The notes under the pieces were generated by a model. It worked only from the letters and a program-made list of their open reading frames with translations, was not told the origin of the DNA and searched no databases. From positions 1-37,814 of IMG/VR virus record IMGVR_UViG_3300030328_002294: 37,814 nucleotides of DNA; one strand, written 5' to 3'. Of the stretch, positions 29,415 to 30,697 are shown in pieces. How positions within the stretch are numbered: the stretch's first letter is position 1; each line of letters opens with the position of its first letter. Position numbers and translations under genes: made by a program. The stretch comes from a virus.

Positions 29415-29452
29415 TGTAAAGATTTGTAAATGCTGACATTAGGTATTAATAC

Positions 29453-29482
29453 TTGACGGAAATTTAATATTTGCTATATAAT
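29453..29482 (+). promoter_or_regulatory. Sigma70-type promoter of the hli group
   Basis: TTGACG (29453-29458), 18-base spacer, TATAAT (29477-29482), then the ATG at 29507. It probably drives all four hli genes. Confidence 0.72.
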
Positions 29483-29506
29483 TATGTTACGTTTCTTAAT
29501 AAACGA

Positions 29507-30153: not shown

Positions 30154-30357
30154 ATGGGCGACTTTATAGCCGCATCAGACAGTATATCACCACTAACAGC
30201 CATACTTTGGGTTTTTTATCCTATGGCTGCTTTAGTTTTAATTGAATTATTACTTCGTACATTTAATGATGATGACGATGATGATTTCCAAGGTGGTAAA
30301 GGAGTTCGCATTGGTCAGATGGAACCTGTTCCTGTTTCAGTTCCATCAGGTGCTTGA
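30154..30357 (+). CDS. Small single-pass membrane protein with poly-Asp run
   Basis: 67 residues. One membrane helix (LTAILWVFYPMAALVLIELL, about residues 14-33), followed by a run of six Asp and then a Gly/Lys region (GGKGVRIG) and a Pro/Val tail. No family recognised. It lies between the hli group and the palindromic promoter at 30354, whose -35 box overlaps its stop codon. Confidence 0.72.
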   Translation: MGDFIAASDSISPLTAILWVFYPMAALVLIELLLRTFNDDDDDDFQGGKGVRIGQMEPVPVSVPSGA

Positions 30358-30383
30358 CTAAAGGGTAAAAATACCTATATAAT
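30354..30383 (+). promoter_or_regulatory. Sigma70-type promoter inside an inverted repeat
   Basis: TTGACT (30354-30359), 18-base spacer, TATAAT (30378-30383), with the ATG at 30411. The -35 box and the upstream spacer form the left arm of the inverted repeat listed next; the -10 box lies in its loop. Confidence 0.75.
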
Positions 30384-30410
30384 AACTGTAGAGTATTTTT
30401 ACCTAGTCAA
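30354..30410 (+). repeat. Long inverted repeat spanning a promoter and ending at a start codon
   Basis: Left arm TTGACTA (30354-30360), unpaired AAG, GGTAAAAATAC (30364-30374). Right arm GTATTTTTACC (30393-30403) and TAGTCAA (30404-30410). All 18 bases of each arm pair perfectly; CTA (30375-30377) and TAG (30389-30391) can add three more. The ATG at 30411 follows directly. There is no T run after it, so it is not a terminator. Confidence 0.85.
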
Positions 30411-30491
30411 ATGCCTCAATTAGTATTTTTTGGTTTAGTAAGCGCATATCTTTATTTCAATGGACCCATCAGTTCTATCGTATTTCAATAA
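30411..30491 (+). CDS. Micro membrane peptide A
   Basis: 26 residues: MPQLVFFGLVSAYLYFNG then PISSIVFQ. Almost wholly hydrophobic, a single possible membrane helix. It begins right at the end of the inverted repeat and overlaps the next small gene by 32 bases in another frame. No family recognised; similar in size to small photosystem or cytochrome b6f subunits, but no motif supports that. Confidence 0.5.
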   Translation: MPQLVFFGLVSAYLYFNGPISSIVFQ

Positions 30492-30588
30492 TATATTAAT
30501 ATCTACACCAGCATCTGCTCATGGGTTGCTGGAATTTGCATTCTTTGTTACTATTGGCATCACTGCCGGCTCATTGGGATTAATATAA
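30460..30588 (+). CDS. Micro membrane peptide B
   Basis: 42 residues with a Ser/Ala-rich centre (ISTPASAHG) and a C-terminal hydrophobic helix (LLEFAFFVTIGITAGSLGLI). Probably single pass. ASAHG could be a cleavage site, though the segment before it is short for a signal peptide. Unknown function. Confidence 0.55.
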   Translation: MDPSVLSYFNNILISTPASAHGLLEFAFFVTIGITAGSLGLI

Positions 30589-30589
30589 A

Positions 30590-30697
30590 ATGTTGAATAT
30601 AGCAGAAACCTTTCAAATGGTTGTTATAATGTTAGCCGGTATTGGAATGACTGTTGGTATGTTTATGATTATGATGTCTGCTATGATGGAGAATTAA
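30590..30697 (+). CDS. Micro membrane peptide C, Met-rich
   Basis: 35 residues, of which ten are Met. One membrane helix covers residues 10-33 (VVIMLAGIGMTVGMFMIMM). It starts two bases after peptide B ends. No family recognised. The Met content is unusual and could suit copper binding or simply a Met-rich helix. Confidence 0.55.
   Translation: MLNIAETFQMVVIMLAGIGMTVGMFMIMMSAMMEN

Follow-up and report, generated by a model that had tools for sequence, protein, structure and literature searches.

The 57-base element at 30354-30410 on the + strand of the window (the whole 37,814-nt stretch of DNA analysed here) is an inverted repeat that contains a promoter and ends directly before an ATG at 30411. 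We consider it an even call that the element carries paired operators for a DNA-binding regulator at a sigma70-type promoter, a reading that comes from comparison of sequences. This explanation ranks above an RNA switch acting on translation, for which we see a smaller though real chance, and both may hold. The window is a fragment of a T4-like cyanophage, a virus of ocean cyanobacteria, and its nearest records are marine single-cell viruses and Prochlorococcus phages such as P-TIM68 and P-RSM6. Upstream of the element on the same strand lie four hli genes and a 67-aa gene (30154..30357) that matches phrog_7843, a PHROG family with no function assigned. No description of this element was found in the literature searched.

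The geometry given in the original prediction is exact in the sequence: 18 pairs (7 + 11) with a three-base bulge on the left, the -35 box in the left arm, the -10 box in the loop and the right arm ending at ATG 30411. The outer left arm TTGACTA (30354-30360) pairs with its complement TAGTCAA at 30404-30410, as seen by both sequence and folding, and is followed by the bulge AAG (30361-30363). The 11-base inner arms, GGTAAAAATAC at 30364-30374 and GTATTTTTACC at 30393-30403, were the longest inverted repeat found locally in an inverted-repeat search. Between them, the 18-base loop (30375-30392) carries the -10 box TATAAT (30378..30383), within TATATAAT at 30376-30383. With the -35 box TTGACT (30354..30359), found by sequence and promoter scan, it forms a TTGACT-18-TATAAT promoter that agrees with the consensus at 11/12 positions. 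From the promoter geometry, transcription is predicted to start at 30390, the 7th base past the -10 box. The upstream gene ends with a TGA stop (30355-30357) inside the TTGAC of the -35 box. Each arm is itself a 12-base near-palindrome, recognized from the sequence and from relatives: the left site GGTAAAAATACC (30364..30375) lies in the spacer between -35 and -10, and the right site AGTATTTTTACC (30392..30403) ends 7 bases before the start codon.

RNA covering 30340-30430 folds at -28 kcal/mol compared with -12.6 ± 2.8 for dinucleotide shuffles (z -5.6), and 0/200 shuffles folded as well. A transcript that begins at the predicted start near 30390 is not notably structured (-4.9 kcal/mol, z +0.6). 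A terminator scan detected no terminator-like site in the element, and the sequence has no T run 3' of the stem. A search of Rfam gave no family match, the best hit being mir-684 at chance level (20 bits versus a cutoff of 100, E 0.85).

The element recurs in T4-like cyanophages on >100 distinct viral contigs. Recruitment of relatives by the upstream 67-aa protein, which is blind to the element, yielded at least 34 distinct copies of the window type, and a pattern scan raised this to at least about 105. Since the scan pattern fixed the left arm, copies recruited in this way necessarily have it conserved; a second, unforced scan served as a check. The collections consist of fragmentary metagenome contigs. 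In these relatives the arms, the promoter and the start codon are kept together, which bears out the expectation that the arms would be conserved. The right arm is always close to the ATG, ending 1-7 bases before it, whereas the left arm shifts relative to the promoter. The left site occurs in three placements: upstream of -35, in the spacer, or on -10. Among the copies recruited by the 67-aa protein, the left arm abuts -35 in four (L012, L015, L032 and L035) and lies on -10 in five (L042, L050, L051, L053 and L058). Promoter spacers measure 15-18 bases, almost all 17-18, the leader from the predicted start is 15-21 bases long, and the spacing between the two sites varies from 25 to 29. Relatives keep only part of the outer TTGAC/GTCAA pairing seen in the window copy, and trailing sequences vary. 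An upstream stop codon inside the -35 box, as in the window, is found in 65/105 relatives. In another 38/105 the upstream gene is short and hli-like, and its stop TAG/TAA lies inside the left arm GGTAG/GGTAA (e.g. L013, L020, L023 and L031); in these copies one sequence is stop codon, palindrome arm and promoter spacer. A host origin was considered and rejected, as the sole GTDB genome match, Prochlorococcus AG-363-K07, lacks the right arm and is not the element.

The gene that follows the element on the + strand is a 26-codon microprotein gene, MPQLVFFGLVSAYLYFNGPISSIVFQ (30411..30491), recognized by its sequence, homologues and codon-position bias. In 104/105 relatives a frame of 24-27 codons begins at the first ATG beyond the right arm; in the exception, L187, such a frame opens from an ATG a few bases further on. 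These frames encode ~80 different sequences with a common hydrophobic plan, M-x-Q-x-x-F.... Changes are about one third as frequent at second codon positions (309) as at first (983) and third (1100) positions, which is the pattern of a conserved hydrophobic protein. The presence of such a microprotein after nearly all copies argues that ATG 30411 is a real start, and the predicted 26-aa product is a membrane-type microprotein. The window microprotein has no Pfam or PHROG match, and the small gene is unannotated in P-TIM68 and P-RSM6, both of which carry the element. At loci lacking the element the small gene often stands directly at the upstream stop, for example in a TAATG overlap. Downstream in the window, a 42-aa ORF (phrog_17067, 30460-30588) overlaps the microprotein gene out of frame and is followed by a 35-aa hydrophobic ORF at 30590-30697.

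The arm palindromes share the consensus (TA)GGTA-N4-TACC(TA). Two copies of a palindrome always pair, so a long inverted repeat arises automatically and only the centre and flanks can discriminate between an RNA and a DNA function. In the right arm the GTA/TAC cores are 91-100% conserved and the centre drifts. Conserved cores with free centres, as at the site of a dimeric protein, place paired operators above an RNA switch, and the operator alternative named in the original prediction fits the comparative pattern better than the switch it put forward. The most telling support for a DNA site comes from lone palindromes at hli promoters, which have variable centres and no right arm. With at least 7/8 core matches, a lone palindrome is present near -35 in 41/75 hli promoters, where ~0.5 was expected from mononucleotide shuffles; because of the kinship among these promoters, the count overstates the independent support. 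In the window a single palindromic site GGTATTAATACT (29442..29453, + strand), identified from sequence and relatives, abuts the -35 of the hli-operon promoter TTGACG-18-TATAAT (29453..29482, + strand, promoter scan) and has no partner arm.

Several observations count against paired operators. Nearly all left centres are rich in purines and the right ones in T, an inverted orientation not needed by independent symmetric sites. The variable spacing between the two sites means that there is no fixed helical phase, the hli promoter of P-TIM68 lacks the site, and the native arm pairs have a slight folding advantage over re-dealt ones (see below).

A genome-wide regulon was rejected, as the remaining palindrome matches in P-TIM68, nearly all of them inside genes, have the appearance of chance hits. 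MerR promoters typically have spacers of 19-20 bases, and an operator of this type was rejected on the spacers found here. An NtcA site, with a spacing of N8 (PMC3037559), was also rejected on spacing, which is N4 here. No named motif in the literature searched matched (TA)GGTA-N4-TACC(TA).

Two further features of hli promoters were seen. Between the -10 box and the hli start, the window has GTTACGTTTCTTAATAAA at 29486-29503, and the 75 related hli promoters that were compared read GTTACATTACTTTACAAA and similar at this position. These sequences resemble the HLR1 site of the host light regulator RpaB (HLR1 examples: PMC6331805), and they may possibly form a host-light switch on the phage hli operon. 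In L201, around 3994 on the - strand, the promoter of an hli-type gene combines the spacer palindrome of the element with an HLR1-like tandem, without a right arm, and is apparently a hybrid of the two promoter types; a spacer site that lacks a partner arm also speaks for a DNA site.

Under the paired-operator explanation, a compact sigma70-type promoter would drive the microprotein gene, with one copy of the palindrome between -35 and -10 and the second immediately downstream of the start site. Most likely a dimeric DNA-binding protein, encoded by phage or host, would bind both copies and block RNA polymerase. Repression rather than activation is suggested by geometry alone: relative to the predicted start the left site would lie at about -26..-15 and the right at about +3..+14, both polymerase-blocking positions. 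The palindrome at the hli promoter would tie the microprotein gene to the neighbouring hli operon; the lone site there centres near -41.5, where either activation or block is possible. The hairpin predicted to fold against the start codon on hli read-through RNA would be a by-product or a second, translational layer, and is probably not what selection mainly maintains.

The RNA switch proposed in the original prediction is a tentative explanation. According to it, read-through RNA from the hli genes pairs the two arms and blocks the ribosome at ATG 30411, whereas local RNA without the left arm is translated. The hli promoter is the likely source of such RNA, and in a scan of the stretch from there to 30354 no + strand terminator was convincing. 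Predicted folding agreed with this proposal. In 105/105 relatives, pairing of the start region (-18..+6) is greater in the long RNA than in the local-promoter RNA, with a mean unpaired probability of 0.25 versus 0.59, and a right arm that is always near the ATG while the left arm moves is as a switch would have it. Native arm pairs fold at -13.6 kcal/mol compared with -12.8 for re-dealt pairs, about 0.8 better (0/300), a difference for which shared ancestry could suffice. A permutation on the arm pairs with G.U allowed gave p 0.0002, which is not a true probability because many of the sequences are related.

The co-variation of the arms, the test by which the prediction itself was to be judged, mostly failed, changes being largely uncompensated. 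Among changes confined to the right arm in 48 sister pairs, a Watson-Crick pair became a non-pair 37 times and wobble and Watson-Crick pairs were swapped 10 times; only 2 double changes kept Watson-Crick pairing. An uncompensated A.A stands mid-stem in one fifth of the elements. In the unforced scan, changes at the left-arm centre were matched by the right arm in one of four groups: the L239 variant ATAA/TTAT was matched, that of the L222 group was tolerated as G.U, and those of the L223 and L225 groups were uncompensated. A compensated C-G change was seen in L063. Hairpin energies range from -24 to -5 kcal/mol across relatives, and 19/105 hairpins are weaker than -9 kcal/mol. In addition, the upstream gene has its stop codon within the -35 box or left arm in 103/105 copies, so terminating ribosomes would cover the left arm and the hairpin block should weaken when that gene is well translated. 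The lone palindromes at hli promoters are also unexplained by a switch.

There is precedent for such a switch in T4, where genes e, soc, 49 and I-TevI have start-blocking hairpins with an embedded promoter (PMC3014915); Aeh1 mobE belongs to the same type (PMC3014915, PMC2988022). As in the e/soc/I-TevI type, the promoter here lies within the 5' side of the hairpin, and in silico the long RNA folds over the start while the local RNA cannot, in 105/105 relatives and in the window. In the T4 type the promoter is a late one, TATAAATA, and the switch is one of timing, whereas the promoter here is of the sigma70 type, like the upstream hli promoter. Unlike in T4, the arms here are themselves palindromes, compensation is weak and the folding is predicted only. 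The element also resembles double-operator promoters of dimeric repressors, with palindromes within the promoter and just after the start, conserved cores, a free centre and the same site at hli promoters; binding here is putative.

A DNA operator and a start-blocking hairpin are combined at one promoter in T4 I-TevI (PMC2988022). We regard it as doubtful that the element similarly has two roles, providing a pair of operators to a regulator that also acts on hli and silencing read-through messages as a translational insulator. If true, the 26-aa microprotein would be made only once the shared regulator frees its own promoter.

It is unlikely that the main role of the promoter and repeat is to provide a homology patch for exchange of small genes, in the manner of the promoter early stem-loop (PeSL) cassettes. 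The same element does stand behind two different upstream genes, in 65 and 38 of 105 copies, near-identical microproteins occur in both contexts, and outer variants resemble a fusion of an hli promoter with a right arm. The shared microproteins and the hybrid-looking variant suggest that the element takes part in module exchange, which is better seen as a consequence than as its function; homology alone would not need such precise conservation of promoter and palindrome. The PeSL stem-loop is said, after Arbiol 2010, to be a terminator. In the element described here the repeat encloses the promoter and lacks a terminator tail, and the complete P-TIM68 genome has one copy, unlike the many PeSL copies per genome. 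PeSL cassettes, mentioned for cyanophage S-PM2 (PMC4503421), do share with it a small sigma70 promoter and a stem-loop in plastic regions of T4-like genomes. Finally, that the repeat is chance or mere AT-rich promoter sequence without function is scarcely credible: the background is AT-rich and promoter-like matches as a class are no commoner in this region than in its shuffles, but the shuffles do not reproduce the fold, the >100 distinct conserved copies already refute it, and the sole GTDB genome-contig match has no right arm.

The paired palindromes mark a shared, recognizable control site in the light-stress (hli) gene clusters of cyanophages. The element is a clean test case for distinguishing RNA hairpins from paired palindromic operators, two kinds of element that resemble each other when one sequence is viewed alone. 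It exposes a diverse family of hydrophobic phage microproteins of 24-27 residues that had gone unannotated in the two named isolates checked, and it points to a DNA-binding regulator that may act during infection of Prochlorococcus and Synechococcus.
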